Of a DNA stretch of 64,000 nt, positions 7,028 through 59,816 are shown piece by piece; the stretch's first letter is position 1; each line of letters begins with the position of its first letter. The stretch is from Balneola sp. Its GTDB lineage: Bacteria; Bacteroidota; Rhodothermia; Balneolales; Balneolaceae. Where the stretch lies: NCBI GenBank assembly GCA_002694685.1, contig NZMW01000016.1, positions 1 through 64,000 of the forward strand. Direction: 5' to 3'. Below the pieces are notes generated by a model. It was not told the DNA's origin and did no database searches. It was given only the letters and a program-made list of their open reading frames with translations. The position numbers and the translations under genes were made by a program.

Positions 7028-7038
7028 GTTAACTACCC

Positions 7039-13929: not shown

Positions 13930-13931
13930 TC

Positions 13932-14123: not shown

Positions 14124-14725
14124 AAATATTAGACGACGAAAAAGATCTGCTGATGGATCACGAGTATGATGGGATCCGTGAGCTGGATAATCACATGCCA
14201 ACTTGGTGGCTATGGCTGTTTTATTTCACTATTGCCTGGGGTGTGGGATACATGGTGTATTATTATATGCTGGGTGGACCTTCTCAGGAAGAACTCTACG
14301 AAATGGAAATGGCTGCAGCTGAAGAACAATACAACCTCAACAGCGGTGGTGATGCCGGACCTGGTGGCGAAGCAGACTTCACCTGGGCCTACCTGGATGA
14401 TGACTCTCGTATTGCTGAGGGTAAAGAAATCTTCATGAGTAACAACAACCTCTGCTACACCTGTCATGGCGCGAATGGCGAAGGCCTTGTTGGGCCAAAC
14501 CTGACTGACGATCTTTGGATTCACGGTTGTTCTGCTGAAGAAATGGCTGCCAGTATCACAGAGGGCTTTCCGGATAAAGGTATGATTGCTTACGGAAGTG
14601 GAGCGCCTATGTCTAACGAGAAAGTGCAAAGCTTAATTAGCTATATCGCCTCCATTCAGGGAACCGACCCGGCAGGTGCCAAAGCACCCGACATGAATCG
14701 GGCTCAACCTTGTTCGATAGAGTAA
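14120..14725 (+). CDS. ccoP: cbb3 oxidase subunit CcoP, single-haem form
   Basis: 201 aa. An N-terminal FixP-type segment (HEYDGIRELDNHMPTWWLWLFY) runs into one membrane helix, followed by a linker rich in Glu and Ala and a cytochrome c domain with C112-YT-C115-H116. The sixth-ligand methionine is probably in GMIAYGSGAPMS. Classical proteobacterial CcoP has two haem c domains and about 300 residues; this one has only one CxxCH. Electrons pass from it to CcoO. The gene ends the first half of the operon: a hairpin at 14747-14792 lies between it and ccoG. Confidence 0.93.
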   Translation: MKILDDEKDLLMDHEYDGIRELDNHMPTWWLWLFYFTIAWGVGYMVYYYMLGGPSQEELYEMEMAAAEEQYNLNSGGDAGPGGEADFTWAYLDDDSRIAEGKEIFMSNNNLCYTCHGANGEGLVGPNLTDDLWIHGCSAEEMAASITEGFPDKGMIAYGSGAPMSNEKVQSLISYIASIQGTDPAGAKAPDMNRAQPCSIE

Positions 14726-14746
14726 ACCAGTCAGTCATTAAGTGAC

Positions 14747-14792
14747 AAGTGATGAGTAGGCTATACCCATTTTGAAGCCTACTCCATCACTT
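14747..14792 (+). terminator. Strong hairpin between ccoP and ccoG
   Basis: The left arm AAGTGATGAGTAGGCT (14747-14762) pairs with 14776-14792 with a single bulged base and a 13 nt loop. No long T tract follows, so it may be a partial terminator or mRNA-processing/stabilising hairpin that sets subunit levels above assembly-protein levels. Confidence 0.55.
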
Positions 14793-14868
14793 ACACAAAG
14801 CCTTCACAGAATCATCATATAAGTGGCCTACATTTCTTTAAAACTATGAGCATTGAGAATGCACAAAT

Positions 14869-26318: not shown

Positions 26319-27437
26319 ATGAATTGTCAGTTTACTTTTCTAGCCTGCTTAGTATTTATTTTCTGGGGATGCACTCCCGATCAAAACACCCAATCCGATG
26401 TCGTTATTTCAAACCCCGAATATGGTTCGTGGCAAGATTTTGATAACCCGCCTTTCGAATTTAAATTGATTGATACTTTTGATTTCGAATCCTTTGACGA
26501 GCTCGTTATAGGTGATATTTCATTCCTCATCAGTGATACTGAAAACAACCTCTACTTTCTGGATTCATCACAAAGCAAACTTATTTCTATTGATTCAGAT
26601 GGCAACCTCCGCTGGGAAACCGGGCAACCGGGACGTGGGCCGGGAGATTTCCAATTTCCACTGGGACTGGTTACCGACGGGGAGTTTCTGTACCTAAGCA
26701 ATATCATGGCCACGCGATTAGACAAATACGCTATACAGGGAAACTTCATCCAAAGCTATGAATTTGGGCCGGAGCTATATATGGGAATCCCAATAGGCAT
26801 CACTAATAATAACCAAGTGGTAATCAGAACTCGTTTGGATGGAAAAATTGGCAGCAGCATCAACCTGGTTGAACTTGCTGCAGACTCCTTAATAACGGTA
26901 ACCGTTCAGGAATACGATCAGACCAATGGATTGGAAATGTTCGAGCGAGCTAATGAAGGAGCCAACATGACCGTTCACAATAATTCCATAATAGAAGGTA
27001 ATTTGTTTGAATATGCCTCTACCTTTTATGATTTAGATCAGGATACCATTAAGACGGTAAGCCGAAATTTTGATAGTATAGTCCGACCCGGAATTGCCTC
27101 AGTCAACGGACGGGAACAAGTTTCAACTTTTAGTCTTGTTGATCCTCCCAGCTTTCTAAATGATGGATATTATCTGGCACGAGCTGAATGGCCGGCCAAT
27201 GTTGAAAATCCTGATCAGGTGGTAGAAGATGGATTAAGAGGAAATCAAAAAGAAGTCACCTACAGAAATAGCCTCGACCTTTTCAACTCAGATGATGAAC
27301 TACTCTATTCTTTCGAGAGTGATGGAAAACAATCCGAGTTTGGAGAATTGCTTCATACCGATAATAACGGCTTTGTCTATTTCCTTACAAACGATCCCGC
27401 TCCTGCTATCCAAAAATATCAGCTGATTCTTGATTGA
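26319..27437 (+). CDS. 6-bladed beta-propeller lipoprotein, copy 1
   Basis: 372 aa. A lipoprotein signal ends in FWGC (Cys near residue 19). The mature part has repeated blades such as NNLYFLDSSQSKLISIDSDGNLRWETG, GRGPGDFQFPLGLV and LYLSNIMATRLDKYAIQGN, typical of the Bacteroidota 6-bladed beta-propeller (DUF5128-like) family. It begins a tandem set of three paralogues sharing the ISNPEYG(S/A) start of the mature domain, the GPGDF blade and a closing LLYS(F/I)E.DG. Probably surface or periplasmic ligand-binding; function unknown. No enzyme gene is in the set. Confidence 0.85.
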   Translation: MNCQFTFLACLVFIFWGCTPDQNTQSDVVISNPEYGSWQDFDNPPFEFKLIDTFDFESFDELVIGDISFLISDTENNLYFLDSSQSKLISIDSDGNLRWETGQPGRGPGDFQFPLGLVTDGEFLYLSNIMATRLDKYAIQGNFIQSYEFGPELYMGIPIGITNNNQVVIRTRLDGKIGSSINLVELAADSLITVTVQEYDQTNGLEMFERANEGANMTVHNNSIIEGNLFEYASTFYDLDQDTIKTVSRNFDSIVRPGIASVNGREQVSTFSLVDPPSFLNDGYYLARAEWPANVENPDQVVEDGLRGNQKEVTYRNSLDLFNSDDELLYSFESDGKQSEFGELLHTDNNGFVYFLTNDPAPAIQKYQLILD

Positions 27438-27473
27438 ACCATAAAGTAAAATTTTACTTAAAACACTTTTTAA

Positions 27474-28622
27474 ATGAATTTAAAATTCATTTTATCACAA
27501 ATATTGTGCTTAATAATCCTAAGTACTGCTTGTTCAAAGGCAGATTTAGACAGTAATAAAATCACCACCATTGATGAGAATGGTGTCGAGATTACTTCAA
27601 ATCCAGAAAGTGGAACGTGGCAGAGCTCTGATACCAGAAAGATACAGTTCGAGCTAATTGATCAGTTCTCATTTCAAGATTCTGAAGAAAAAATCATTTC
27701 CGGTATTACCTTTTTATCTCAGGGTCCGGATGAGCACATCTACTTTTTTGATAGACAACAGAATGAGCTTAGCTCTATTAACCAAAAAGGTGAGCTGAGA
27801 TGGTCAGTTGGTCAGACTGGGAGAGGACCCGGGGATTTTGAGAATGTCTCCGGCATGAAAGTAATCGATGACAAAATCCTTGTTTCTAACGTACAGGGCA
27901 CGCGCATTGACTTATTTGATCTGGATGGAAATTTCGACCGTTCTATCCAATTACAAGATGACATCATCTTTGCAAAAATTATTGGTAAAACACCTGACGG
28001 TGAATTGGTCATAAGCTCTATGCTTAGAGGGAAACTTGGAGTGACTGTCCACATGGTAAACATCGACCCTGAATCTACTGCTACAAATACTTCGTTTCCC
28101 ATTTCTCAGGGCCCCGAACTGGATATAAAGGTAGGAGTTGGTCTTGATGCAGGCTTATCAATAAGAGACGGAAAAATTTATTCCGGAAATACTTCCACCT
28201 ATGAAATTGGGGTCTATTCTATGACCGGAGAACTTCTTCAAAAGATTACTCGTGATTTCAATAAAATGGTCCGCCCCGGTATTATGAAAATGGAAAATTA
28301 TAGTGGAATCAGAACATTTGGAGAACTGTCAAACCCCTACTTCCTAAATAATGGCAGCTTTATTACTGTAGCTCTTTGGCCGAAGAATATTGAAGATCCG
28401 GATGACTACATGAATAAAGTTCAGAACAATACAGCCCCTGATGTCATCAGAGCAAACTCACTAGACTACTTCAGTAAAGATGGTGAGCTTCTTTATTCTA
28501 TTGAGCATGACGGGTTTTATCCCGAGATAGGAAACCTTCAATTCATCAATGAGAATAACATCCTTTACACTGTGAAAAGATTAACAATTAATAGGTATAA
28601 AATGAATGTAGAGAATGAATAA
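27474..28622 (+). CDS. 6-bladed beta-propeller lipoprotein, copy 2
   Basis: 382 aa. Lipobox LSTAC (Cys about residue 20). The mature sequence follows the same plan as its neighbours: GVEITSNPESGTWQ at the start, blade repeats HIYFFDRQQNELSSINQKGELRWSVG and GRGPGDFENVSGM, and LLYSIEHDG near the end. It lies 36 bp after copy 1 with no terminator, so co-transcription is likely. Similarity to copies 1 and 3 is clear by eye in the conserved blades but low elsewhere, suggesting old duplication with diverged ligand surfaces. Confidence 0.85.
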   Translation: MNLKFILSQILCLIILSTACSKADLDSNKITTIDENGVEITSNPESGTWQSSDTRKIQFELIDQFSFQDSEEKIISGITFLSQGPDEHIYFFDRQQNELSSINQKGELRWSVGQTGRGPGDFENVSGMKVIDDKILVSNVQGTRIDLFDLDGNFDRSIQLQDDIIFAKIIGKTPDGELVISSMLRGKLGVTVHMVNIDPESTATNTSFPISQGPELDIKVGVGLDAGLSIRDGKIYSGNTSTYEIGVYSMTGELLQKITRDFNKMVRPGIMKMENYSGIRTFGELSNPYFLNNGSFITVALWPKNIEDPDDYMNKVQNNTAPDVIRANSLDYFSKDGELLYSIEHDGFYPEIGNLQFINENNILYTVKRLTINRYKMNVENE

Positions 28623-28689
28623 TTTTTTGACTTTGTTCGGTAACTGTTCCATTAAATATTCATTAACCTGATCATATAAAACCCCACAA

Positions 28690-29832
28690 ATGCTTAGTAA
28701 AATTAATTACTTAATATTTTTATTTACACTCCTGCTAATTGGCGGGTGTACCCAAAATAAATCAGACACAAAAAACTCTAGTATTGATGAAAGTGGCACC
28801 GAAGTCATTTCAAACCCCGAGTATGGTGCCCTTCAAGAGAACGAAAACCCTGTTCAGTTTGAGCTGGTTAGTGAGTTCACATTCAAAGAAACCGATGATC
28901 TATTAGTAGGCAGCATTGGAGATTTAAATACGGATAGTGATGGTAATATCTATTTCTACGATTTCAGGTTTTCGAGAATTGTATCTCTGGATGAAAACGG
29001 AGATGTACGCTGGGTAACCGGTCAGGAAGGAAAAGGTCCGGGAGACTTCATGCGGGTAAGAGGCATGGTTCTTCATAATGATCTACTTTATATATCTAAC
29101 CAGTCCGGCAGTAGACTCGACCGATTCAATTTGAATGGAGAATATCTTGGTAGCTCTGACTACCCATTAGAAATTGATGGTTCCTCAATTTTGGGATTTT
29201 CCGATGATGGTAAGCTCATTCTATCCCAAAGCGCAGTGGGAATTGTAGGCACAAAAATCCACGTCGTTGAATTTGACGGTTCCTCTTTTACTCCAACCAA
29301 CTCATTTGATGTAGATCAATCCGGTGGAAAAGAAATCCCCAAAAATGTTGGAATGTCGGTCGGTATCGAATATCAGGATGGCCAAATTATATCCGGAAGT
29401 GCCGGCAAAGACTATGAACTGGACTTTTATAACCTCGATGGAAAAATCGCAAAAACCATCAATCGTGATTTTGATAAGTTATCTGGAATTGGCTCCGCCA
29501 ATGGAATGACCCTGTCCTACAGCAGTATCCAATATGAGTTTGAGCTAAAAAGTGGTCACTTTTTTGTGTTTGCACGCTGGGCTGCCGGGGTTACAGATGC
29601 TGATCAGGAAGTCAAAAAGAGAGCTAACGAGAATTATGTATATCCAACAAATAAAAACACCTTAGATCTGTTTACTCAAGATGGAAAATTACTTTATTCC
29701 ATAGAAGGAGATGGCAGTAGTTTTAAACTAGGATATCCGGTTCATACAGATCAAAACGGTTTAGTCTACTTCATGACAACCAGCCCAACCCTTTCGCTAA
29801 AGAAATATAGGGTCACTATAAAAGAGAGGTAA
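28690..29832 (+). CDS. 6-bladed beta-propeller lipoprotein, copy 3
   Basis: 380 aa. Lipobox LIGGC (Cys near residue 20). The mature start GTEVISNPEYGALQ, the blade NIYFYDFRFSRIVSLDENGDVRWVTG, GKGPGDFMRVRGM, and the ending LLYSIEGDGSSFKLGYPVHTD match copies 1 and 2. It is 67 bp after copy 2. The downstream gene is glutaryl-CoA dehydrogenase, 71 bp away; whether they share a transcript is unclear. Confidence 0.85.
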   Translation: MLSKINYLIFLFTLLLIGGCTQNKSDTKNSSIDESGTEVISNPEYGALQENENPVQFELVSEFTFKETDDLLVGSIGDLNTDSDGNIYFYDFRFSRIVSLDENGDVRWVTGQEGKGPGDFMRVRGMVLHNDLLYISNQSGSRLDRFNLNGEYLGSSDYPLEIDGSSILGFSDDGKLILSQSAVGIVGTKIHVVEFDGSSFTPTNSFDVDQSGGKEIPKNVGMSVGIEYQDGQIISGSAGKDYELDFYNLDGKIAKTINRDFDKLSGIGSANGMTLSYSSIQYEFELKSGHFFVFARWAAGVTDADQEVKKRANENYVYPTNKNTLDLFTQDGKLLYSIEGDGSSFKLGYPVHTDQNGLVYFMTTSPTLSLKKYRVTIKER

Positions 29833-46013: not shown

Positions 46014-46048
46014 AAACCCGCTTTATTTTAGAGCGGGTTTATTTTTTT
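46014..46048 (+). terminator. Intrinsic terminator after thiolase gene
   Basis: AAACCCGCT (46014-46022) pairs perfectly with AGCGGGTTT (46032-46040), then a T-rich run. Separates the thiolase gene from the secretion cluster. Confidence 0.85.
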
Positions 46049-46275: not shown

Positions 46276-49200
46276 ATGCTTAACAGGCTGCTTTTTATTA
46301 GTAGTTTGCTTTGCTTATTGATTGCTCAAGGGGTTAATGCCCAGCAACTGAAAGTAGTAGCAGAAACGAGTTCCTTTACGGACTATGAGTTCGTCAATGA
46401 TGACCTGAAAATCATGTCTTCATACGGCCTTACAGTTCCTGTGTCTGGAAATTCGCCTCGATATCAAATCCTGGAACAGGCTGTATCTACTCTAAATTCT
46501 ACAGTAAGTCAGGAAAAAGCTGCCGTCCTCGCTCTCTCCTCAACAAACCAGCCATTAATCGAAACCTCTGAACCTGGTGTATATAGAGGAAATAAGGTGA
46601 GTTCGTTAAGCATAAACATTGCCCGACATGGAGAAAGAGAAACACTGGTACTTAGAAAACTTCGCTTGCGTGTTTATAAGGAAGGAGATCAGGTTCTGCC
46701 AAAACAAAATCGCTCTAAAGCTTTAAGCACTTCTTTATTTGAAACCGGAACCTGGTACAAAATACCGGTCACTCAAAGTGCAATCTACCAACTTGATGCT
46801 GACTATATGGAAAGTCTTGGCATTGACATTTCTTCCATCGATCCTCGAAATATACAGTTATGGGGCACTAACGGATATCAGCTGCCAGAGTTAAACAGCG
46901 CTTCCCGCCCTGAACTAAGCCAATTACCAATCATTGTTGAAGGTCAGAATGATGGCGTATTTAACACCAATGACCGTGTGCTGTTTTATGGAAATAGCCC
47001 ACACCAGATATTAAGAGACAGTCTTGATTTTTCACACCAAATACACCCATACAGTAATCAGAATTTCGTATTCCTTACTATTGGTGATGAAGCTGGTAGC
47101 CGACTTTCTGTATCTAATAACAATATCTCTCCTTCCAGAACCATAACAACATTCTCTGATTTCATCTGGAAAGATGAAGAGCTTTATAAATCCGAAGATC
47201 GTATTAAGTCGGGTCGATACTGGTTTGGCCGTCGTTTTGAAGCCACAAGTAACGGGACACCCATCACCGTGTTTTCAGATACGCTACCCGGAATATTAGA
47301 AGATGAGCCACTTACAGTTGAAGGACAGTTTGTAAGCCGTTCTACACGCTCTTCGAGTTTTGACATTTCACTGAATGAAGTTGAAATAGCTGATATAAAC
47401 ATACGGTCTTTGAGATGTAACAATTGCTCCAGCTGCTATAATTGCAGTGAAGGCGAATCGGGAGTGGCTAACAGCTTCTCAACTTCAATTACCCCAAGCA
47501 TCCAAAATGGAGTCATTGAAGCTAGTGCTACCTATAATCATACTGAATCTAATTCTACAGGCTTTTTAGACTGGTTTCGCATTGTTGTACAAAGGGAGTT
47601 ACAGGCTAAAAATAACCGCTTATTCTTTTATTCTCCTGCTGATGGTTCTTCTTCGGAGTTAGGTCAATACCGGCTTACCGGTTTCGATAGCCAGCCAACC
47701 GTTTTGGATGTAACAGATCCAACAAGTCCTAAGCTTCTAGGATCAACCGGATCAAATGGCACCTTCAGCGTCAATTACCGCACAGGAAATGATTTACGAT
47801 TTATTGCCCAGTCTACCTTCAATCAACCTGCAGCCGGTCAGCCTGTTGAAGCTCAGAATTTGAGAGGTATTACCGAGTATCCTGACTATATAATTGTAGT
47901 TGCTGAGGAGTTTCTTGAGTATGCTGAAGAGCTTGCTGCTTACCGTGCTGATAAAGACGGATTAACTCCTGTAGTTGTTACTCAAGAGCAAATCCTGAAT
48001 GAGTTTTCGAGTGGCGTTCTTGATCCCTCTGCAATTCGAGATTATACCAAGTTCCTTTATGACCGTGCGCTCAATGATGGTCAGATTCCGCCTAAGTATC
48101 TACTCCTTTTCGGCGATGCTACTTATGACTATAAAGATATCATTAATAATAGCTTCACAAACTATATTGTTACTTATCAAAGCAGCGAGTCTTTAGAAAG
48201 AACACGATCTTATGCTACAGATGATTTCTTTGGCTTCCTTGATGATGATGAGGGGGCTTTGGGAGCTGGAAATACAAACAACTCTCACTTGCTAGATATT
48301 GGTCTTGGGCGTATTCCTGCACAAAATAGGTCTGAAGCAGCTACAGCCATTCAGAAAATCAAAATTTATGAAGACCCTTCCAATACAGGTTCATGGCAAA
48401 ATCTTATTTCTTTTGCCGCTGACGATGACTTCCCGGATGTAGATAGAAACAGAGATCTTCATGTGCTTAATGCCGATGAATCTGCCGAAAGGATGAATAT
48501 CATTGAACCGGGACTTCGTATTAAAAAGATTTATGAATTTGCTTATCCGGAAGAAATAACTGGTTCAGGACGCCAAATTCCAGGAGCTACTGAAGAATTC
48601 ATCAGCACACTGAACAATGGTACGCTGGTCATGAACTATTCCGGTCATGGTAATGAGCAGACGCTTTCGGATGAAGAGCTTTTCTTGACGGACTACATTC
48701 CAAATCTAACCAACAAAAATTACTTAGCAGTATTGGTTACCGCTACTTGTCAGTTTGGGCGTTATGATGACATCGATGCACAATCTGGTGCCGAGCAGTT
48801 ATTTTTTGCAGAAAATGGTGGTGTTATCGGAGCTTTTACCACCACCCGTGTTGTATATACAGGTTCAGGCATTCAGTCTAATAATAATTTTGGGTTGAAC
48901 GTAGCCCTATCACAGCGCATGGTAGAGCGTAATAGCGATGGCACTCCGCTCCGCCTTGGTGATATCTATACCCGAACCAAGAATTCCCTGATTAATGGAA
49001 TTCCGGTTGTATCATCCCGAAACAGCAAGAAATTTATTCTAGTCGGTGACCCTGCAACTAGATTCCGACTTCCGGAACAACAAGCTGAGCTTACATCCAT
49101 CAACGGTTTTAGTGATACAGACCAAGACACTACACTTACTATTCGCGCTTTAGATCAGGTTAGCCTTACAGGACAAATAAGAGATTTAGCAGGCAATGCG

Positions 49201-50190
49201 CTCCCTAATTATAGCGGAGAAGCGACTGTAACTGTTATGGATGCCCGAAGAAATGTACCACTCCCGTCTGACCGGGAATGGGTTGCTGAAGAACGCTGTA
49301 ACCTCACTGACTGCAGTTATGATGTTGAAAATGACGTGTTATTCCGTGGTAAAGCAGCAGTAAGTAACGGGCAGTTTACCTCTTCTTTCATCGTACCAAA
49401 GGATATAAGTTTTTCAGATGACAACGGCCGCATCATATTTTTCGCCAACAATAATGGTACTACAGCGGGCGGGTCGTTCACCAAAGTAAATTTCAACGGA
49501 GTCAATGAAAACGCAGTAGATGACGGAAATGGTCCAAAGTTGGATATATTCCTCAATGACCAGCGTTTTGTAAACGGTAACCTTGTAAACGGTTCACCGA
49601 ATTTAATTATAGAGCTTGAAGATCAATCAGGTATAAATACTACAGGAACAGGAGTAGGACATGAAATAATTGCTACAATCGATACCAAACCACAACAATC
49701 GTTTGTCCTCAACGACTTTTATGAGGGCAGTTTAAATGATTTCACACGGGGGCGTATCGAGTACCCTCTGGATCAACTTCCTGAGGGTAGCTATACCCTT
49801 AAAGTTCGAGCGTGGGATGTGCATAATAACCCAACCGAAGAAGAAATTTTCTTCGAGGTTGCATCGAGTGAGGAGTTAAGCGTTAGAAACGTCTTTAACT
49901 TCCCCAATCCGATGAATAATGCCACCCGATTCAGCTTCGAACATAACCAGCCCGGTAATCCGTTAGATGTGTCAGTACGTATTTACACATTGAGTGGCAA
50001 GCCGGTGCAGCAAATTGAACAGTCACTCATAACTACAAGTTCTTATGCCAGTATTTCATGGGATGGCCGTGACCGGGATTATGATCGCCTGGGTAACGGT
50101 ACTTATATTTATGTGCTTCGGGTTACAACAGATACCCCGAAAGGAAGACAAACAGCAGAGCAAATCGAAAAGCTCGTAATTATACGCTAA
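46276..50190 (+). CDS. porU: Type IX secretion system sortase PorU (C25 gingipain-like)
   Basis: 1304 aa with signal peptide (LLFISSLLCLLIAQGVNAQ). The middle holds the C25 peptidase fold: YLLLFGDATYDYKD, catalytic H791 in VMNYSGHGNEQTLSDEELF, and catalytic C825 in VTATCQFGRYDD. The C-terminal ~85 residues (NFPNPMNNATRFSF through GNGTYIYVLRVTT) are FlgD-like/T9SS C-terminal. PorU is the outer-membrane sortase that cuts the C-terminal signal of T9SS cargo and attaches it to the surface. Unusual: four Cys at 381, 384, 387 and 390 (C-NN-C-SS-C-YN-C). porV follows after 59 bp, the usual PorU-PorV pairing. Confidence 0.93.
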   Translation: MLNRLLFISSLLCLLIAQGVNAQQLKVVAETSSFTDYEFVNDDLKIMSSYGLTVPVSGNSPRYQILEQAVSTLNSTVSQEKAAVLALSSTNQPLIETSEPGVYRGNKVSSLSINIARHGERETLVLRKLRLRVYKEGDQVLPKQNRSKALSTSLFETGTWYKIPVTQSAIYQLDADYMESLGIDISSIDPRNIQLWGTNGYQLPELNSASRPELSQLPIIVEGQNDGVFNTNDRVLFYGNSPHQILRDSLDFSHQIHPYSNQNFVFLTIGDEAGSRLSVSNNNISPSRTITTFSDFIWKDEELYKSEDRIKSGRYWFGRRFEATSNGTPITVFSDTLPGILEDEPLTVEGQFVSRSTRSSSFDISLNEVEIADINIRSLRCNNCSSCYNCSEGESGVANSFSTSITPSIQNGVIEASATYNHTESNSTGFLDWFRIVVQRELQAKNNRLFFYSPADGSSSELGQYRLTGFDSQPTVLDVTDPTSPKLLGSTGSNGTFSVNYRTGNDLRFIAQSTFNQPAAGQPVEAQNLRGITEYPDYIIVVAEEFLEYAEELAAYRADKDGLTPVVVTQEQILNEFSSGVLDPSAIRDYTKFLYDRALNDGQIPPKYLLLFGDATYDYKDIINNSFTNYIVTYQSSESLERTRSYATDDFFGFLDDDEGALGAGNTNNSHLLDIGLGRIPAQNRSEAATAIQKIKIYEDPSNTGSWQNLISFAADDDFPDVDRNRDLHVLNADESAERMNIIEPGLRIKKIYEFAYPEEITGSGRQIPGATEEFISTLNNGTLVMNYSGHGNEQTLSDEELFLTDYIPNLTNKNYLAVLVTATCQFGRYDDIDAQSGAEQLFFAENGGVIGAFTTTRVVYTGSGIQSNNNFGLNVALSQRMVERNSDGTPLRLGDIYTRTKNSLINGIPVVSSRNSKKFILVGDPATRFRLPEQQAELTSINGFSDTDQDTTLTIRALDQVSLTGQIRDLAGNALPNYSGEATVTVMDARRNVPLPSDREWVAEERCNLTDCSYDVENDVLFRGKAAVSNGQFTSSFIVPKDISFSDDNGRIIFFANNNGTTAGGSFTKVNFNGVNENAVDDGNGPKLDIFLNDQRFVNGNLVNGSPNLIIELEDQSGINTTGTGVGHEIIATIDTKPQQSFVLNDFYEGSLNDFTRGRIEYPLDQLPEGSYTLKVRAWDVHNNPTEEEIFFEVASSEELSVRNVFNFPNPMNNATRFSFEHNQPGNPLDVSVRIYTLSGKPVQQIEQSLITTSSYASISWDGRDRDYDRLGNGTYIYVLRVTTDTPKGRQTAEQIEKLVIIR

Positions 50191-50215
50191 CATCGTAACT
50201 TAAACTTGAATCTCT

Positions 50216-50223
50216 TATATTTG
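50216..50223 (+). promoter_or_regulatory. Bacteroidota-type -7 element before porV
   Basis: TATATTTG matches TAnnTTTG, 26 bp before the porV ATG, in the 59 bp between porU and porV. A good -33 element is not obvious. It would allow porV to be expressed apart from porU. Confidence 0.35.
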
Positions 50224-50249
50224 AGTTCAATTATTTAACTATAGTTTTT

Positions 50250-51401
50250 ATGAAAAGGATAGTATCCATAATAGCGGTTGGGCTTTTATTTTTAGCCCCA
50301 ACCATTACACAAGCACAGGTTGCCATTACAGCAGTACCCTTTCTACAAATAGAACCGGATTCGCGTGGTGCCGGTATGGGAAACACAGGTGTAGCCCTTG
50401 CCGACAACGCCTCCGCGCTATTTTGGAACCCGGCTGGGTTAGCCTTTCAAAAGGGCTCAAATCAAGCCAGTATCACCCACTCCAATTGGTTAGCCAACTT
50501 CAACGTAAGTGATTTATTCTACGACTATGTTGTAGGTAAATACTACATCGAAGGAGTGGGTACAATCGGAGCTCACTTGACTTACCTTAATCTTGGTGAA
50601 CAAGTAGTTACCGATGAAACCAGTCCAGAACCCATTTCCCGATTCAACAGTTATGAATTGGCATTAGGAGGTTCTTATGGATATCAGGTGAGTAAAAACT
50701 TAGGCCTTGGAGCTAGCTTGCGACTTATATACTCAAGTTTAGCAAGCGGAACTTCTATTGCAGCTCAGAAAGTAAATCCGGGGAACAGTGTTGCCCTTGA
50801 TCTATCCTTTCTGTACAAAACGGATGTTTTCGCTCTTGGCGGCCGGGATGCTCGGTTCAGCTTTGGTACCAACCTCTCCAACATAGGTCCTGGAATTCAG
50901 TACACCGATAACGCTCAGAAAGATCCCCTCCCAACCGTATTGCGTTTTGGATGGTCTTTTGACCTTGATCTTGATGATGACGGTATCAACCGAATCACTA
51001 TTGCCAATGACATTTCGAAAATCATGGCACGTACCGAACCTAAATTCACAACTAATCCTGATGGGTCTATTGACACAGCTCGTGTAGCTGCCGGACCAAT
51101 TGAGTCTATTTTCAAATCTTGGGATAGTTTCGAGAGATTTGATGGCCAAAATACCATCGAAGTCGGCGTCCTGCAGCAGTTCATGATTGGTGCCGGTTTA
51201 GAATACTGGTATAATAATCAGTTCGCGCTTCGCGGAGGATACTATTACGAAGATCCCCAAAACGGAGATCGTGAATACATTACATTTGGAGCCGGTATCC
51301 GATATAATTTCCTTGGGGTTGATTTCAGTTACATAAAAACACTGGAACAGGATCACCCTCTTGCTAACACATTACGATTCAGTTTGCTTATTGATTTTTA
51401 A
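50250..51401 (+). CDS. porV: Type IX secretion outer-membrane protein PorV
   Basis: 383 aa, with signal peptide (GLLFLAPTITQAQ) and an outer-membrane beta-barrel of the FadL-like UPF0164 type. The start of the mature barrel, AVPFLQIEPDSRGAGMGNTGVALADNASALFWNPAGLA, is the PorV/LptO signature; amphipathic strands continue to the terminal FSLLIDF, which ends in Phe as outer-membrane barrels do. PorV shuttles T9SS cargo from the translocon to PorU. It is followed 3 bp on by the M6-like T9SS cargo. Confidence 0.93.
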   Translation: MKRIVSIIAVGLLFLAPTITQAQVAITAVPFLQIEPDSRGAGMGNTGVALADNASALFWNPAGLAFQKGSNQASITHSNWLANFNVSDLFYDYVVGKYYIEGVGTIGAHLTYLNLGEQVVTDETSPEPISRFNSYELALGGSYGYQVSKNLGLGASLRLIYSSLASGTSIAAQKVNPGNSVALDLSFLYKTDVFALGGRDARFSFGTNLSNIGPGIQYTDNAQKDPLPTVLRFGWSFDLDLDDDGINRITIANDISKIMARTEPKFTTNPDGSIDTARVAAGPIESIFKSWDSFERFDGQNTIEVGVLQQFMIGAGLEYWYNNQFALRGGYYYEDPQNGDREYITFGAGIRYNFLGVDFSYIKTLEQDHPLANTLRFSLLIDF

Positions 51402-51404
51402 TAC

Positions 51405-54400
51405 ATGCAACATTTGAAGTCTATTTTAAAGAGCATGTTAACCGTTAGCATGCTCTTTCTATTTGTTACGATTGATATTTCCGCTCAAGAGATCCCCATT
51501 AAACGTTCTCATGCTATCGCTGAAGCTCAGCCACAATTAGCAGATAACTTAAATGCGACCGGCACTCTTAACGTGGTTGCTATTATGGTTGAATTTCAAC
51601 CTGACAGCAATCGCCTGACCACAGGTACCGGCATCTTCGGGCCAAATGGCATGGAAGGTCTTCCCTATTTAGCTAACGCTGAAGATTTTCGGGTTGAACC
51701 ACTTCCGCACAATCGGAACTACTTTGAGGCTCACCTTGAATTTGCTAAGAACTATTTCGAGAAGTCATCGGACGGACAATTAATGATCGACTATCAGGTG
51801 TTACCTGATATCTATCGATTGCCTAAAAAGATGGAAGAGTATTCTCCGACCGGCGAGACTTTCACAAACGAAAAAATCGCAGAACTCTCCCGTGATGCCT
51901 GGCAGCAAGTAGAAAATGGACCTGATTTTGATGCAACGGGATTAGACCCTGAAACAACCGCTTTTGTGATTTTTCATGCCGGCGTTGGCCGGGATATTGA
52001 ACTTGTCGGAACCAGCCTGGATATCACTCCTTTTGATATTCCCTCAATTTATCTCCGCAAAGATAATCTTGGAAAGTTATTAAATGACCCTTCGTTTAAC
52101 GGTTTTCCTGTCAATGATGGGAACTTCAGAGTCACGAACACTTTAATCATCCCTCGCACCGAATCCCGTCGCGGATTAGATATTCAGGAAAACGAATTCG
52201 CTTTCCCACTCTCTATAAATGGGCTTTTATGTGCTTCCATAGGTAGTCATTTAGGCCTGCCGGATTTATTCAACACTGAAACCGGAGATCCGGCCATCGG
52301 ACGTTTTGGCCTGATGGATGGCGCTGGCTTCTTTTCCTACAATGGATTACTTCCGCCCGAACCTTCAGCCTGGGAAAAAATGTATTTAGGCTGGGAGACA
52401 CCTTTTGAAATTGATGTTAATACCCAAGGTGATATTCAGCTCCCGGCAAGTTCGTTAAACCAGGGAAATGCTATCGCGAAGTATAATCTCTCAGAGTCTG
52501 AGTACTTTCTGATTGAAAACCGACACCGAGACCCGGATGGAACAGGTATTACACTCACCATCCGCCAACCCGACGGTACGGAAGTGCAGCAGACTTTTAC
52601 CAATCAGGATGAAGCTTTTGTATTTCAGGAAGCAGATTTTGATACCCTTTTAGAAGCCGGGACTTTTGTTGATGCATCTAATTTTGATTTTAGCTTGCCT
52701 GGCGGACTCGATGTTGGTGAAGACGAAGATGACCCTGCTGATGATCGTAATCTAAATGGTGGAATTTTGATTTGGCACATCGATGAAGCCATGATTGATC
52801 TTCAGCTCCAGAACGATCGTGTGAATGCTTACCCAAATCGTCGCGGAGTTGATTTAGAAGAAGCTGATGGAGCCCAGGATATTGGTCCCGGAGTACCCGG
52901 AGCATTGGACAATAGCGCAGCCTTTGGTGCACCTTTTGATTTTTGGTGGAGTGGAAATAACTACAGGGTTATTTTACAGTCTGGACAAGAACGTAGTTTT
53001 TATGAGAACCGATTTGGCCCTGATACTCGTCCAAATAACAAAAGTAATTCCGGCGCCCCCTCCTTCTTCGAGCTGTATGATTTTTCTGATAACCTGACTA
53101 CCGCTACATTTAAGATTCGCGCCAATGAACCAAACTCTGATCTGTATTCCTCAAAATTCTCGGTTCAATTAGATTCCTCTCAAAGCTATTTTACAGAAGA
53201 CGATCCATATTATAGCTACTACCCATTATCTCTATCCGTTTATGAAACAGCTTCAGATACTTTCCTGATTATTCCTTCTCAGGAATCTGCTATGGCTGTA
53301 TCTATTTCAGATCCGGAAAACCTTCAGTTTCAAATATCAAACCAAGCTATTCAGCAGCCTTTTATTGGGAATGAACTTGTTCTTGGAGAAAAACCTCAGC
53401 AAAATTCAGCTAATATTGAGGTCTCTTCCCTTACCTGGAATGTTACTACTCAACAATTCGACACTACATGGACTTCAACGATACCTGCAAATACAGGATT
53501 TCTAAGTTCACAAAGTGGGCAAGTTATTCATGCCGATCTTACTACCACGGGACTTTCAGCTAACGACGGCTCAGAAGTATCTTTACAGACTATTCCATTT
53601 CAACAGTCCGAAATTATCGGTGGTGAATATGCCACCGTTGAACGTAATAGTGGCAATGCAGAAGTCACCTTTACCAACTTAGCTGATTTCATATACATCC
53701 CTGAATCAGCTACAAATAGGATTTATACCGGTACCATACAGCAAGGCAGCCGAAGCATTTTCTATGTATTTGAAGATAATAAATTCACCCTTTTCGACTC
53801 CGAATCAGATCCTGCTGAATTGCCTGTTTTTGAGGAAGAAGGAGCTGAGTGGCCTGCCATTTTAGATGATGCTTCAGTTCTTCGTGTTGACAAATTCAAC
53901 AATCAGTTGCTTGCTCAGAATAAAAACGGGAGTATTCAAAACTACTATCCTGTTAACGCTCCGGAAGGTGTTCAGTTTATTGGGACTCCCCTTTATACAG
54001 ATTTAATTGAGTCCGGAACCGAATATGCCTCGTTAGTAGTCGGGCAAGATAGTTTGTCTATCAACATCTATGCTTATTCAAACAATGGAGAACTGATTGA
54101 AGGCTTTCCTCTTTACGTTGGCAAAGCAATTTCGGCTCAAGCCCAGCCTATTCATCCTATTATTTATGATGGAAGTCTTTATACAATTGGGCATTCCGGA
54201 ACCTTGAAATCATGGAACCTGACTCAGGTCACAGATACCAAGTGGGGTTCACGCTATGGCACCGCTCCATTCAATAAAGTATCGGCCAGAGTGGAAAGCA
54301 TTTTTGAAGGCACACCCTCTGCTTTTGGTGTTTTAAACGAGGAAGAAACTTATAATTGGCCAAATCCGGCAGTAGATCATACCAATATCCGCTTTCAGAT

Positions 54401-54611
54401 CTCAGAACCCGGTGGTACCGTTCAGGTATCAATTATCACTGTAAGCGGCCGAATTATCTTTGACGAAACGGTTAGTTCTACGGGCGGATTTCCACAAGAA
54501 ATCAGAGTGGAAACCGCGGACTGGGGAAGCGGCGGCTATATAGCTCGTATAAAAGCTACGGTTGGTGGCAAAACAGAAACCAAACTCATTAAAATTGGAG
54601 TTGTACACTAA
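51405..54611 (+). CDS. M6-like T9SS cargo protein, catalytic motif lost
   Basis: 1068 aa with signal peptide (MLTVSMLFLFVTIDISAQ). Residues ~50-450 resemble the M6 (immune inhibitor A) fold: VVAIMVEFQPDSN, HNRNYFEAHLEFAKNYFEKSSDGQ and LGLPDLFNTETGDPAIGRFGLMDGAG. In active relatives HELGH precedes LGLPDL; here residues 277-281 are ASIGS, so both zinc histidines and the Glu are missing. The C-terminal ~80 residues (NWPNPAVDHTNIRF through GGYIARIKATVGGKTETKLIKI) are a T9SS type A sorting domain, so it is a likely cargo of PorU/PorV. 3 bp after porV and 1 bp overlap with the next gene. A binding or scaffold role is inferred. Confidence 0.85.
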   Translation: MQHLKSILKSMLTVSMLFLFVTIDISAQEIPIKRSHAIAEAQPQLADNLNATGTLNVVAIMVEFQPDSNRLTTGTGIFGPNGMEGLPYLANAEDFRVEPLPHNRNYFEAHLEFAKNYFEKSSDGQLMIDYQVLPDIYRLPKKMEEYSPTGETFTNEKIAELSRDAWQQVENGPDFDATGLDPETTAFVIFHAGVGRDIELVGTSLDITPFDIPSIYLRKDNLGKLLNDPSFNGFPVNDGNFRVTNTLIIPRTESRRGLDIQENEFAFPLSINGLLCASIGSHLGLPDLFNTETGDPAIGRFGLMDGAGFFSYNGLLPPEPSAWEKMYLGWETPFEIDVNTQGDIQLPASSLNQGNAIAKYNLSESEYFLIENRHRDPDGTGITLTIRQPDGTEVQQTFTNQDEAFVFQEADFDTLLEAGTFVDASNFDFSLPGGLDVGEDEDDPADDRNLNGGILIWHIDEAMIDLQLQNDRVNAYPNRRGVDLEEADGAQDIGPGVPGALDNSAAFGAPFDFWWSGNNYRVILQSGQERSFYENRFGPDTRPNNKSNSGAPSFFELYDFSDNLTTATFKIRANEPNSDLYSSKFSVQLDSSQSYFTEDDPYYSYYPLSLSVYETASDTFLIIPSQESAMAVSISDPENLQFQISNQAIQQPFIGNELVLGEKPQQNSANIEVSSLTWNVTTQQFDTTWTSTIPANTGFLSSQSGQVIHADLTTTGLSANDGSEVSLQTIPFQQSEIIGGEYATVERNSGNAEVTFTNLADFIYIPESATNRIYTGTIQQGSRSIFYVFEDNKFTLFDSESDPAELPVFEEEGAEWPAILDDASVLRVDKFNNQLLAQNKNGSIQNYYPVNAPEGVQFIGTPLYTDLIESGTEYASLVVGQDSLSINIYAYSNNGELIEGFPLYVGKAISAQAQPIHPIIYDGSLYTIGHSGTLKSWNLTQVTDTKWGSRYGTAPFNKVSARVESIFEGTPSAFGVLNEEETYNWPNPAVDHTNIRFQISEPGGTVQVSIITVSGRIIFDETVSSTGGFPQEIRVETADWGSGGYIARIKATVGGKTETKLIKIGVVH

Positions 54612-57600
54612 TGAGAATTACCAAGTTACTTTCTGTTTTATTGTTGATGATATGTTTTGTGCCTTCACTTACACAGGCACAAACTGATGTCCGGTTCTAT
54701 GACTATCCCCAAAACCACCTCGACTGGTACACTATAGAAAGCGAGCATTTTTTGGTGCATTTCCAGGAAGGCAATAGTCGTTCTGCACAAGTAGTTTCAC
54801 GAATTGCTGAAGAAGTACAACCACCAATTACACAACTTTATCAGTACGAGACAGACGAAAAAGTCAGTATTGTTCTCAAAGACCGCGAAGATTACTCAAA
54901 CGGTGCAGCCTACTTCTTCGACAATAAAATTGACATCTGGTTACCTGCTTTAAACACTCCTCTACGGGGGACTCATAACTGGCTTCGGAATGTAATATCC
55001 CACGAGTACACGCATATTATACAGATTCAAAAAGGAATGAAGCGAAGCCGTAAAATTCCGGCTTTCTACCTCCAATGGCTTTCTTATGAAGATGTTCGCC
55101 GGCCTGATGTTCTCTATGGCTTTCCAAATGGAATTATAACCATGCCCTTCGCAACGGTTAATATTCCCGCATGGCTAGCCGAAGGGACTGCCCAATATCA
55201 AACGGCAGGTCTATTATATGAAACATGGGACAGCCACAGGGATATGATTTTACGAACCCGGATTCTTTCCGATACTTATTTCTCTTTAGCCCAAATGGGG
55301 ACATTCTCCTCCAAAACCAGCCTTGAACGCGAGACTGTTTATAATCAGGGCTATGCCTTTGTAATCTATCTTGCCAATCGTTTTGGGGATGAAGTGTTAC
55401 GCGAAATTACCTCAGCACTGGGAGAAAAAGGAGTTTATTCTGTTGAAGAAGCTATTGAAATGGCTAGAGGTATTCCCGGTGAAGAAGTATTTCAAAGTTG
55501 GATTGATGAACGAAAAGAGTTTTATACTGACGCTACTAGCGGAATCAACCCAACTATTTCAGATACTGTTGAACCCTCAGGTTTCTATAACTTTTTTCCT
55601 CAGCTATCGCCGGATGGCACAAAGCTCGCCTACTTATCCAATAAGGGAATTGATTACGGGTTGATGTCGCTCTACCTCAAAGATTTAAATGGTAAAGACA
55701 AAGAAATCGCTGTCATCGACGACATTAAGTATCATGAGAAACAGAACCATGTCAGCTCTATGGAGCCATTGGTAACGTTCCTGGAAACCTCTTTCTCTTT
55801 CTCACCAAATGGTGAAAAAATCGCCTACGCCATCAACAAAAAGAATAAATATGGTGAGAGTTACCGCGATATTTTTCTTTATGACGTCAAATCTGAAGAG
55901 AATAAAAGACTCACCAACAGTGCACGAATTGAATCTCCGGAATGGAGTCCTTCAGGTGAAAAAATTGTAGCCGTTCAATATTCACAGGGAACTCAAAACT
56001 TAGCACTTCTATATCCGGGTCAAACGGATTCTGTAAAGCAACTTACAAATTATAAATCCGGTGAGACCGTTTACACTCCAGAGTGGAATCAGGCTGAGTC
56101 GAAAATCTATTTTGCCAAAGCTAAGCTCGATAACCGGGATATTTATATTTATGATATGGCATCCGGAATAGTGATCCCTTACCTGAACGACAAATACATT
56201 GATTACCGCGATCCGCATTTAGGCCCTAATGGAGAGTATTTGTACTACTCAGCTAATCCAGAAGGCATTTTTAATATTTATCGAATTTCTCTTCAGACCG
56301 GTGAAGAGGAGAAGCTAACCAGCGTTATGGGCGGTGCATTCATGCCTTATATTGGAGAAGATGGAACGCTTTATTTCTCTGAATTTCACAAAGATGGGTA
56401 CAAAATTAAATCTGCTAAAGAGCTCAATTTATTAACTCAGCCTCAGATGGGTTTTTATGAACCTGCTTTCCCTGATGACATTACATCTCCGGGTGCTGAT
56501 TTTGAATACATTAACAAGCTCAACGATTTCGATGATACAGATATCCGGCCTTTTGGTGCTACCGCAGAAGCCATAGCTGATACCGGAACGTACCGTTATC
56601 AAATGACCACCATCGATGGAAATAAAGATCTGGAATATCGGGAGTACGAAGATACCTACTCCGGATTTAGTTTTTTCCCGGTCTTACGTTTTGATAACTA
56701 TTCGCAAATTAATGGAAATAACGGGTCGCTTATTAAAAATGGAAAGGTTGGAAAGTTTGGGGAGAACTTGCTTCGCGATGCCAAACCCGGTGTGTACTTC
56801 TCCTCCAGAGACGTCATTGATAAACTCAGTATTTTTGGTGGAATTATGGTTGGTGTAGCATCTCAGCCCGCTGAAAGTATAGGTGGATTCTTTTTACCTG
56901 ACCGACTTCTTGGGCTCGATCGTGACGCTTTTTTAATTGCCGAACATCGGGGTCTTCCTTTCATCGAGAGAAGCTGGTCACCCACCATTGCTCTCGAAAT
57001 TTATAACCTCCGAAGGAATGTATCTGATGGATTATCAATAGAAGAATTTCCATGTACATCTTGTTTGCCGGATACCGTCAACACGAACATTGCTTATGAC
57101 ATTTGGGAAGCAGGGCTCTACTTCAGAAGTAAACTAAGCCGCAGAAGCATGCTTGAGCTGGGTATCGCTTACAGCCCTTATAGAGTTTCAACCGATGATT
57201 TTTATTCCCGTGAACTTCAAGCTCAGATAAGCGGGTCTTCATCTCAGTACTTTCGCGGAACTACCTATTCCGGATCTTACACCTTCGATTACTATACTTA
57301 CTCAAATGATGCCGACATTGCTCCATTGGGTTTAAAAGGCTACGCGAGATATCAATTTCAGCCCTCTAAATTGCTTGAAGAGTATGAGATTAAAGATGGA
57401 TCTCTTGTTCCAGTCTTCAAGAAATCCAACAACCACTCTTCCGAGATTCATATGCGTTATGGTTTCAAGACCTTTGGGGATCAGGCTTTTCAGGCTCGTA
57501 TCCGTGGTTTCCATTATTTCAACAATCCCAATGATTCGTTCTATTCTGATTATGTAGGTGGATTTTTGGGCATGCGAAGCTATCCATATTTTGCTTTGGG

Positions 57601-57970
57601 AGGAAGTACCACCGGTTTCGCCAGTTTATCCTGGTTCGCACCCATTTTTCGAAATATCAATAAACAAGCCGGACCTTATACACTGGATAAAGTTTTTGCA
57701 CGTTTCTTCTTTGAAACCGGCAACGGGTGGAGAAGTCCTTATGACACCGGCAATAATTTAAAGTCTGGAATTGGAGCTGAATTACGATTAGCCTTAAATG
57801 GGTATTATCTTTTCCCGCTGAAATTCTTTGTTAGTGGATCCTATGGATTTAATAAATTTACACTCACGCTACCGGATGATTTCATTACCAACTCACAGAG
57901 CAATAAAGTGACTTATGGTAGAGATATTCTTATCCACTTTGGCATAACCTTCGACTTTGAACTGCTATGA
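54611..57970 (+). CDS. Gluzincin / beta-propeller / outer-membrane barrel protein
   Basis: 1119 aa with signal peptide ending LTQAQ. Residues ~35-290 are a peptidase MA-like gluzincin: H131-E132-YT-H135 in ISHEYTHIIQIQ, and E191 in AWLAEGTAQYQT. Residues ~310-620 carry PD40/TolB-like propeller repeats (FPQLSPDGTKLAYLSNKG, ESPEWSPSGEKIVAVQYS, RDPHLGPNGEYLYYSAN). The last ~450 residues are strand-rich with aromatic ends, finishing LIHFGITFDFELL, which suggests an outer-membrane barrel. It overlaps the M6-like gene (1 bp) and the DUF5683-like gene (4 bp). Likely a surface metalloprotease or translocation factor with the T9SS genes. Confidence 0.85.
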   Translation: MRITKLLSVLLLMICFVPSLTQAQTDVRFYDYPQNHLDWYTIESEHFLVHFQEGNSRSAQVVSRIAEEVQPPITQLYQYETDEKVSIVLKDREDYSNGAAYFFDNKIDIWLPALNTPLRGTHNWLRNVISHEYTHIIQIQKGMKRSRKIPAFYLQWLSYEDVRRPDVLYGFPNGIITMPFATVNIPAWLAEGTAQYQTAGLLYETWDSHRDMILRTRILSDTYFSLAQMGTFSSKTSLERETVYNQGYAFVIYLANRFGDEVLREITSALGEKGVYSVEEAIEMARGIPGEEVFQSWIDERKEFYTDATSGINPTISDTVEPSGFYNFFPQLSPDGTKLAYLSNKGIDYGLMSLYLKDLNGKDKEIAVIDDIKYHEKQNHVSSMEPLVTFLETSFSFSPNGEKIAYAINKKNKYGESYRDIFLYDVKSEENKRLTNSARIESPEWSPSGEKIVAVQYSQGTQNLALLYPGQTDSVKQLTNYKSGETVYTPEWNQAESKIYFAKAKLDNRDIYIYDMASGIVIPYLNDKYIDYRDPHLGPNGEYLYYSANPEGIFNIYRISLQTGEEEKLTSVMGGAFMPYIGEDGTLYFSEFHKDGYKIKSAKELNLLTQPQMGFYEPAFPDDITSPGADFEYINKLNDFDDTDIRPFGATAEAIADTGTYRYQMTTIDGNKDLEYREYEDTYSGFSFFPVLRFDNYSQINGNNGSLIKNGKVGKFGENLLRDAKPGVYFSSRDVIDKLSIFGGIMVGVASQPAESIGGFFLPDRLLGLDRDAFLIAEHRGLPFIERSWSPTIALEIYNLRRNVSDGLSIEEFPCTSCLPDTVNTNIAYDIWEAGLYFRSKLSRRSMLELGIAYSPYRVSTDDFYSRELQAQISGSSSQYFRGTTYSGSYTFDYYTYSNDADIAPLGLKGYARYQFQPSKLLEEYEIKDGSLVPVFKKSNNHSSEIHMRYGFKTFGDQAFQARIRGFHYFNNPNDSFYSDYVGGFLGMRSYPYFALGGSTTGFASLSWFAPIFRNINKQAGPYTLDKVFARFFFETGNGWRSPYDTGNNLKSGIGAELRLALNGYYLFPLKFFVSGSYGFNKFTLTLPDDFITNSQSNKVTYGRDILIHFGITFDFELL

Positions 57971-58944
57971 AAAAACTTACTTTCATATGGCTGACCATGA
58001 CATTGCTTCCTATGGCGATGTCAGCTCAGGTGGTAAGTGATTTCAGCAACGGAATTTTTAAAAAGGCTGAAATTCAAAAATCAACAGAAGCAGATCTGCA
58101 TATTTCTGACTTCTCTTATCAAAGTGAATTTTCAAGTAGTCGCTCGGGTGTTTTAGAAGCTTCGCGAACTAAGCCTTTTGTAGCCTTTACTGCTTCAGCA
58201 CTTGTTCCCGGAGCTGGACAGGCATTAAACGGAAAATGGGCACGAGCTGGTGTTTATTTTGCCATTGAAGCAGCTGGTATCATCTATCATCTGGATAGAA
58301 ATGCGAAAGCCCGTCGTCAGGAAAAAGCATACGAAGCATTCACTCACAAAAACTGGAGTGTTTTAGCTTATGCTGAATGGCTGGTTGAGTATTCGCAGGC
58401 AAATGGTTTGGATAACGACTGGCAGACCCTTCAGGCAAATATTGAGGGGCAAGATCCGGACTTCAGTAATACTACTAACGATTGGGGTAAAGTAAACATC
58501 AATCTTCTGCACCAAGTTGAAAATCAAACCCCATTTGTTTTTGAAAATAAATTGGGCATTGAATTTTCTCATACACTTCCTGAATATGGCTCCCAGCAAT
58601 ACTATGAGCTAATCAGTAAGTATTATCAGTTTCAGGCCGGCTGGCAAGATTTTTACAATGTCTCTATCAACATGAGTTCACCCAACTATGATCCTAATCA
58701 CACTTTTTTCTACGGCTGGCAGGGAAGGGATGAACCGAACACTTTATTCTATCAAGGACGGGATCGTGCACAGACATTTAATGACAATTATCGCGCAGCC
58801 GGGAACATCCTGAAGCTTTTGTTGGTAAATCATGTAGTTTCCGCCTTCGATGCATTATTCACCGTTCAGCTAAAAAACAGCCGAATCGAGAGTAACACCA
58901 ATCTCATGAAGATGGAACAATTTTCGTTAACCTGGCACTTTTAA
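57967..58944 (+). CDS. DUF5683-like membrane protein
   Basis: 325 aa with signal peptide ending MSAQ. The region FVAFTASALVPGAGQALNGKWARAGVYFAIEAAGIIYHLDRNAKARRQEKAYEAF is the DUF5683 pattern: a glycine-rich turn and hydrophobic helices, then charged residues. The rest (NVSINMSSPNYDPNHTFFYGWQGRDEPNT) has no motif I know. In this family the hydrophobic helices suggest envelope location. Translationally coupled to the preceding barrel protein; function unknown. Confidence 0.75.
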   Translation: MKKLTFIWLTMTLLPMAMSAQVVSDFSNGIFKKAEIQKSTEADLHISDFSYQSEFSSSRSGVLEASRTKPFVAFTASALVPGAGQALNGKWARAGVYFAIEAAGIIYHLDRNAKARRQEKAYEAFTHKNWSVLAYAEWLVEYSQANGLDNDWQTLQANIEGQDPDFSNTTNDWGKVNINLLHQVENQTPFVFENKLGIEFSHTLPEYGSQQYYELISKYYQFQAGWQDFYNVSINMSSPNYDPNHTFFYGWQGRDEPNTLFYQGRDRAQTFNDNYRAAGNILKLLLVNHVVSAFDALFTVQLKNSRIESNTNLMKMEQFSLTWHF

Positions 58945-58967: not shown

Positions 58968-59816
58968 ATGCACATGCTTAAGCAGATTCTCACCAACAAA
59001 TATTTCTACATCGGTACTTTTTCGCTGATGATATTCGGCGCGGCTCTACTCTATGTGGCCGACAATTTCATTATGCCTTCTTATACCAATTTTAATGAAG
59101 GGGTAACCGTACCCGACGTCACCCGAATTTCTCTTGAAGAAGCAGAAACCATGCTCACCAGCTACGGATTACGATTCGAAGTGACTGACCGGCGAGCAAA
59201 TTCTGCATACCCGGCCGACTACGTTATTGACCAAAGTCCCGGAGCGGATAACATTGTAAAGCCGGACCGAAAGGTTTACCTAACCGTGAATACCGAAGTC
59301 CGGCCTCAGGTACAGGTACCTGATGTTGTTAATCTATCTCCACGAAATGCTGAGATTCAGCTTCAGAACTATGGCTTGGTTGTGGGATCTAAGAGTTACG
59401 AGTCTTCCAGATTTAAGAACATTTTGAGACAGTCAATCCCTGCAGGAACAACCGTCGAAAAAGGCACCGTCATTGATTTAGTGCTTGGAGATGGGTTTGG
59501 CAATAAAATTGTCACGGTCCCTGAAATCATAGGGCTTCGACTACCTGAAGCTCAGTTAAAGCTACGAGAAGCCGGTTTTAGGGTTGAAGAAGTCCAATTC
59601 CGTCCAACTAAAGATATTGTCCCAAATACCGTATTAGATTTCTCTCCTAAAGAAGAGCAACTTCGTGAAGGAGAAACTTTGACACTTGTAATTTCAGAAC
59701 GGTTTGAAGTTATTGAACAAAGTGAAGGTGGCGCTGTTATCATTGATTCCACTGGAAATAACTCTTCTACACCGCCGGATTCCACTAACAATCAACCCAA
59801 CAACAATCAGGATTAG
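58968..59816 (+). CDS. PASTA-domain membrane protein
   Basis: 282 aa. One N-terminal membrane helix (YFYIGTFSLMIFGAALLYV) then three PASTA domains: VTVPDVTRISLEEAETMLTSYGLRFEV, VQVPDVVNLSPRNAEIQLQNYGLVVG and VTVPEIIGLRLPEAQLKLREAGFRVEE, each followed by the usual NxVxxxxPxxG turn. The C-terminal tail is Asn/Ser/Pro-rich. PASTA proteins bind peptidoglycan or muropeptide; no kinase domain is attached here. Its stop (TAG) touches the rpe start codon, so the two are co-transcribed. Confidence 0.92.
   Translation: MHMLKQILTNKYFYIGTFSLMIFGAALLYVADNFIMPSYTNFNEGVTVPDVTRISLEEAETMLTSYGLRFEVTDRRANSAYPADYVIDQSPGADNIVKPDRKVYLTVNTEVRPQVQVPDVVNLSPRNAEIQLQNYGLVVGSKSYESSRFKNILRQSIPAGTTVEKGTVIDLVLGDGFGNKIVTVPEIIGLRLPEAQLKLREAGFRVEEVQFRPTKDIVPNTVLDFSPKEEQLREGETLTLVISERFEVIEQSEGGAVIIDSTGNNSSTPPDSTNNQPNNNQD

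Follow-up and report, generated by a model that had tools for sequence, protein, structure and literature searches.

The window, a stretch of 64,000 nucleotides from Balneola sp. (contig NZMW01000016.1, positions 1 to 64,000), carries five same-strand open reading frames coding in order for PorU, PorV, a T9SS-exported pseudoprotease with a dead M6 domain (M6i), a protein combining a gluzincin peptidase, a propeller and a barrel (GPB) and a DUF5683-like membrane protein (Table 1). The genes are spaced by 59, 3, -1 and -4 bp, exactly as the first-pass annotation had described for five exported proteins in one direction, and by eye all five products start with a Sec-type hydrophobic N-terminus with A-x-A/Q-like end sites. 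The adjacency of porU and porV is already known. The transcription unit probably starts downstream of the hairpin that separates the thiolase gene from porU; terminator-like sites overall were not above shuffles, and a scan for consensus promoters was uninformative (23 found vs 31.8 expected). Just within M6i, 23 bases past its coding start, is a hairpin of 14 pairs and a T-rich tail (51428-51458), which could reflect either translational control of M6i or chance. Beyond position 58944 the compact run extends into the PASTA gene after 23 bp and then into rpe after 0 bp; the linkage of these two genes is restricted to Balneolales, whereas the five-gene core is phylum-wide. PorU, M6i and GPB are each single-copy in the genome, weak paralogues aside, and about 66 matches to type A C-terminal sorting domains (CTDs) indicate that this genome appears to run an active T9SS. 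Elsewhere in the window, we noted three consecutive ORFs of 372-382 aa (26319-29832) that are enclosed by two acyl-CoA dehydrogenase-like genes and match no NCBIfam family at 1e-10, and a run consisting of a heavy-metal P-type ATPase gene, a gene for fused cbb3 oxidase subunits I/II and then ccoG (9084-16338).

Table 1. Coordinates of the five genes, their internal features and adjacent elements in the window
Feature	Position	Strand	Basis or remark
Terminator-like hairpin between thiolase gene and porU	46014..46040	+	12-pair stem, then T run; consensus match only
PorU, T9SS C25 sortase with own C-terminal domain (NFPNP)	46276..50190	+	1304 aa; NF033707
PorV, outer-membrane shuttle barrel	50250..51401	+	383 aa; NF033710, Pfam PorV
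M6i, T9SS-exported pseudoprotease: dead M6 domain, beta-propeller, type A CTD of YNWPNP subtype	51405..54611	+	1068 aa; NF052323
Lost HExxH position of M6i, residues 277-281 (A-S-I-G-S)	52233..52247	+	Alignment of 22 M6i
Predicted M6i beta-propeller, about residues 556-939	53070..54221	+	Model secondary structure
M6i C-terminal sorting domain, ETYNWPNP motif	54345..54608	+	TIGR04183
GPB: gluzincin peptidase, TolB-like propeller and C-terminal outer-membrane barrel	54611..57970	+	1119 aa; Peptidase_MA_2, PD40; AlphaFold2
HEYTH zinc-binding motif of GPB, residues 131-135	55001..55015	+	Homologue alignments
Candidate third zinc ligand E191 of GPB	55181-55183	+	Homologue alignments
Predicted TolB-like propeller of GPB, about residues 318-603	55562..56419	+	Foldseek, profile
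Predicted 16-strand GPB barrel, (R)GYP-type loop between strands 11 and 12	56669..57952	+	Strands counted on model
DUF5683-like membrane protein, invariant SHxLPxYGSQQYYEL and NHxxSAFDA motifs	57967..58944	+	325 aa; Pfam
PASTA-domain protein	58968..59816	+	Pfam PASTA 133 bits; module linkage in Balneolales only

The first two genes code for familiar T9SS components. PorU matches NF033707 over its full length (1088 bits vs a cut-off of 420), and the C25 catalytic His/Cys (GHG...TC) is kept in all 65 PorU proteins tested; PorV scores 309 bits with NF033710 (cut-off 250) and 123 bits with Pfam PorV. The sortase, PorU, is intact, and PorV is the shuttle, which is reported to recognise type A CTDs (PMC12618676). 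The same genome codes for two further PorV-family proteins (contig C4, L317:8776-9975 and 11387-12559) that flank a 397-aa ORF and possibly mark a second shuttle locus; related NCBIfam names, PorV2/PorU2, exist.

M6i is a full-length match, at positions 1-1043, to NF052323, the “T9SS-dependent M6-like inactivated metalloprotease” (1296 bits vs a cut-off of 600), and its CTD is recognised by TIGR04183 (29.3 bits); the dead M6 family and its dependence on the T9SS are thus already curated by NCBI. The aligned site lacks HExxH in 61 of 61 M6i proteins, so that every one examined is devoid of the motif of an active M6 metallopeptidase and the earlier call of a dead enzyme stands. The surroundings of the lost motif are strongly conserved (INGLL...LGLPDLF...GRFGLMDG), and this combination is the signature of a pseudoenzyme, not of decay. 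In the AlphaFold2 model (pLDDT 78.7, pTM 0.73) the M6 part is accompanied by one propeller region and the CTD. Foldseek relates the propeller to BamB and other propellers, with PorZ at rank 7, a match that we judged to be a generic propeller match (TM 0.13-0.17); FG-GAP repeats are found in 12 of 22 relatives, and a PDB profile search with the M6i alignment returned nothing at E 0.1.

The CTD of M6i is of a distinct subtype: W precedes PNP in 118 of 128 M6i proteins vs none of 167 other CTDs from the same loci, with the qualification that these motif rows are mutually related, their counts not being independent events, and that 27 “other” rows with W were read, from their ETYNWPNP-type tails, as M6i fragments or members missed by a simple classifier. 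In PorU and ordinary cargo the residue before PNP is mostly Y or F. As its motif differs from all other sampled CTDs, M6i is probably not ordinary cargo, the role in which it had been cast at first; the YNWPNP difference is only suggestive of a subunit of the PorZ type, in which the CTD is retained and A-LPS is bound.

GPB scores 39.3 bits with Peptidase_MA_2 (cut-off 32.4) and contains PD40 repeats. Residues H131, E132, H135, E191 and G192 are invariant in 22 homologues and in 16 more divergent ones (down to 32% identity), giving the HExxH plus downstream Glu that characterises gluzincins. Its AlphaFold2 model (pLDDT 78.4, pTM 0.78) comprises the gluzincin domain, a propeller and a barrel. 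The propeller finds TolB as its top Foldseek matches (E 8e-11) and TolB chains by sequence profile (E 2e-20). The barrel carries a MRSYP/ARGYP motif in the loop between strands 11 and 12, MRSY or ARGY being found in only part of the members; the region after it aligns with BamA (hhalign E 0.0087), and Pfam Omp85 matches one of 16 members (E 2e-5). Membership of the barrel in the Omp85 superfamily is likely but not proven. If it is right, the protease and propeller would face the periplasm, which makes the first-pass description of a surface module doubtful for GPB; for the DUF5683 protein that description is only presumptive. A GPB paralogue of 992 aa in the same genome (contig C1, ~402.4-405.4 kb; L318:6431-9409) keeps HExxH and lies directly 3' of a 672-aa ORF, with no T9SS core gene seen nearby.

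The fifth protein scores 25.2 bits with Pfam DUF5683 in the window, just below the cut-off of 26.7, and all 20 relatives match the family at E up to 0.1, the best at 2.6e-10. W130, E185, H202, QQY, K218, GW, N288 and H289 are invariant in 20 homologues.

The neighbourhoods of relatives were annotated with profiles built from family members. The one-strand order PorU, PorV, M6i, GPB, DUF5683 is found in 19 of 21 diverse loci from the window's class, and in full in 14 of 20 loci sampled outside this class but within the phylum. With GPB as the query, a separate named collection yielded the full order in 40 of 80 loci, an arrangement lacking only PorU in 14, and PorU, PorV, M6i and GPB without DUF5683 in 10, several of which end at a contig edge. 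These loci include those of Balneola, Rhodohalobacter sulfatireducens, Roseithermus sacchariphilus, Rhodothermales, Ignavibacteriales, Melioribacteraceae and Chlorobiaceae; the five-gene order recurs in Balneolota, Rhodothermota, Ignavibacteria-type and Chlorobi-type genomes, and the M6i-GPB and GPB-DUF5683 junctions typically measure -4 to +30 bp. Such recurrence in dozens of divergent genomes is far above chance. The neighbours thus form a conserved module with PorU and PorV, as had been proposed, and independent scatter was not seen. We rejected an accidental neighbourhood on the basis of this cross-class order and of the co-inheritance of M6i and GPB where they are unlinked.

That co-inheritance is without exception in the genomes sampled. 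Of 146 genomes of the class, 106 carry both M6i and a strong GPB match and the remaining 40 carry neither; among 395 genomes sampled from the phylum, M6i and strong GPB likewise occur only together, in 151 of 151, four additional GPB matches there being weak (E 1e-41 to 1e-50 vs <1e-200 for the rest) and looking like paralogues. The pair also persists where the genes have parted: about 16 genomes have both on separate contigs or far apart, including one complete chromosome with 862 kb between them (G149), with at least one unlinked case (G435) that may reflect a contig break. A GPB gene relocated away from M6i is still accompanied by DUF5683 (L324, L325). Relocated GPB is also seen flanked by ORFs of 420-435 aa (L320:6653-7954 and 12974-14242; L326:1236-2516 and 6822-8120) that weakly resemble M6i (27-50 bits), a similarity that may stem from a CTD.

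The relationship with PorU is looser. Of the 146 class genomes, 103 have PorU, M6i being present in 83 of these and both M6i and GPB absent from 20; a further 23 carry the M6i-GPB pair without a PorU match at E 1e-60; in all 20 loci examined of these 23, PorV, M6i, GPB and DUF5683 stand in order with PorU cleanly absent. On the PorV tree the PorU state changes at least five times, including a loss within the window's own genus (G015). SprA is present in 145 of the 146 class genomes. Among the genomes sampled outside the class, PorU is found in all 77 that have M6i, and many of them, 109 in number, have PorU without M6i or GPB; together with the 20 of the class, these indicate that the M6i-GPB pair is not needed for the T9SS generally. 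As for the tie to the “sortase pair” suggested by the first-pass annotation, conservation with PorU and PorV stands but specificity for the sortase does not. A dependence of the module on the sortase is ruled out by the 23 PorU-less genomes, and since these keep the pair, the unit that endures consists of M6i and GPB, accompanied by PorV and DUF5683.

Further loss is seen in the Balneolaceae genus g6, where the locus consists of PorV, M6i, GPB and DUF5683, of PorV and DUF5683 (L221, L222), or of PorV alone (L223, L224, L226-L228), M6i and GPB being jointly absent in every eroded g6 locus. Loci L221 and L222 vs L223-L228 form an erosion series in one Balneolaceae family, mostly of g6, in which the PASTA, rpe and PhoH genes are unchanged. 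PorV itself is kept in 19 of 20 genomes without PorU, M6i and GPB. The proposal that M6i, GPB and DUF5683 constitute one dedicated trio is weakened by the separability of DUF5683, which outlives the pair in L221 and L222 and follows the relocated GPB in L324 and L325.

Together, these observations show that M6i and GPB form an obligatory pair that is inherited independently of PorU, and the best supported statement is that they work together in the context of the T9SS and PorV and do not only serve PorU. The association is strong; the mechanism, with its contacts, sidedness and substrate, we infer. We favour, with a probability of about 0.6, the view that this is an ancient five-gene operon serving the outer-membrane end of the T9SS, in which M6i is a fixed component, GPB its membrane protease partner and the DUF5683 protein an assistant. 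M6i would be exported through SprA and stay at the outer membrane, probably held by PorV via its unusual CTD, and would act there as a fixed component, a pseudoprotease binding polypeptide or glycan, rather than as free cargo. GPB would be anchored in the outer membrane with its protease in the periplasm, where it may process or quality-control M6i or CTD-bearing clients at the translocon, and the DUF5683 protein may assist GPB in this. It speaks against the operon view that the T9SS in general does without the pair, as noted above, and that a periplasmic protease and a surface pseudoprotease are not obviously in contact, the sidedness itself depending on a putative Omp85-type barrel; moreover, co-inheritance is at the level of genes and does not imply physical contact.

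A bolder version, which we put forward tentatively and consider doubtful, is that M6i and GPB, with PorV and DUF5683, are a PorU-independent branch of the T9SS. The pair would process or fix CTD proteins at the outer membrane, would predate the split of several Bacteroidota classes and would be able to outlive the sortase.

Two other roles for the pair need to be weighed. In the first, M6i would be the counterpart of PorZ, a surface CTD-bearing propeller handing lipopolysaccharide or another anchor to PorU, with GPB as its maturation or assembly protease. PorZ of Porphyromonas consists of two propellers and a CTD that PorU leaves uncleaved, and it acts together with PorU and PorV (PMC8545088); M6i, a dead protease, propeller and distinct CTD coded beside porU-porV, recalls this layout, and PorZ is among the upper Foldseek matches of its model. 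We nevertheless regard this role as unlikely, since that match is generic and since M6i and GPB persist in the 23 class genomes that have no PorU to receive an anchor.

Alternatively, GPB, with M6i as an adaptor, could handle type A cargo as a second CTD-processing enzyme or sortase, working alongside PorU and standing in for it where it has been lost. GPB is indeed predicted to be an outer-membrane protease with an intact active site, and PorU-less genomes that retain M6i and GPB also retain SprA and 5-32 type A CTD proteins. However, 4-9 CTD proteins remain even where PorU, M6i and GPB have all been lost, and cargo drops upon loss of PorU (within the window's genus, 8 type A CTDs in the PorU-less G015 vs 60-66 in three PorU-bearing genomes), which argues that GPB is not a full replacement. 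As the protease domain is probably periplasmic and CTD removal takes place at the surface, an alternative sortase seems quite improbable. That M6i and GPB are merely lineage-specific outer-membrane housekeeping proteins sharing the porUV promoter for reasons of expression is very improbable: the Balneolales run does continue into PASTA, rpe and phoH, without a T9SS link, but the M6i CTD requires the T9SS, the pair is perfectly co-inherited even when unlinked and is jointly lost, and the core order is kept across classes while that of PASTA and rpe is not.

The operon view bears on how the T9SS is described, as its parts list comes mainly from Bacteroidia (Porphyromonas, Flavobacterium). If the M6i-GPB pair is a true component, the T9SS of other Bacteroidota lineages would have an unstudied outer-membrane protease unit, and the sortase-less lineages offer a natural test of the fate of CTD proteins without PorU. 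A literature search, weak evidence given its poor coverage of subscription papers, found no paper that ties GPB or DUF5683 to the T9SS and none on the module.

Among known families, NF052323 (T9SSA_dep_M6i) includes the gene at 51405 as a full-length member far above its cut-off, but the family name is silent on the co-inheritance with GPB, the YNWPNP subtype of the CTD and the persistence without PorU. M6i belongs to the same domain family as the M6 peptidases (immune inhibitor A family) and keeps the GLPDLF segment, but differs in having lost HExxH. Pfam DUF5683 (PF18935) covers the relatives of the fifth protein, but the region with the SHxLPxYGSQQYYEL and NHxxSAFDA motifs lies outside the Pfam match. 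GPB resembles TolB of the Tol-Pal system in its propeller and, on the model, Omp85 barrels of the BamA type in its 16 strands and the RGYP-type loop after strand 11; it differs from both in that the predicted propeller and barrel are fused in one chain with a gluzincin peptidase, and no POTRA domains were seen in it. As a probable surface protein with a propeller and a CTD unlike that of cargo, M6i resembles PorZ in role; it has, however, a dead M6 domain and one predicted propeller instead of the two propellers of PorZ. The attachment complex of the Porphyromonas gingivalis T9SS consists of PorU, PorV, PorQ and PorZ (PMC8545088), two of which have adjacent orthologues here; it has no counterpart of GPB or DUF5683, whereas in the lineages described here M6i and GPB are kept even without PorU.
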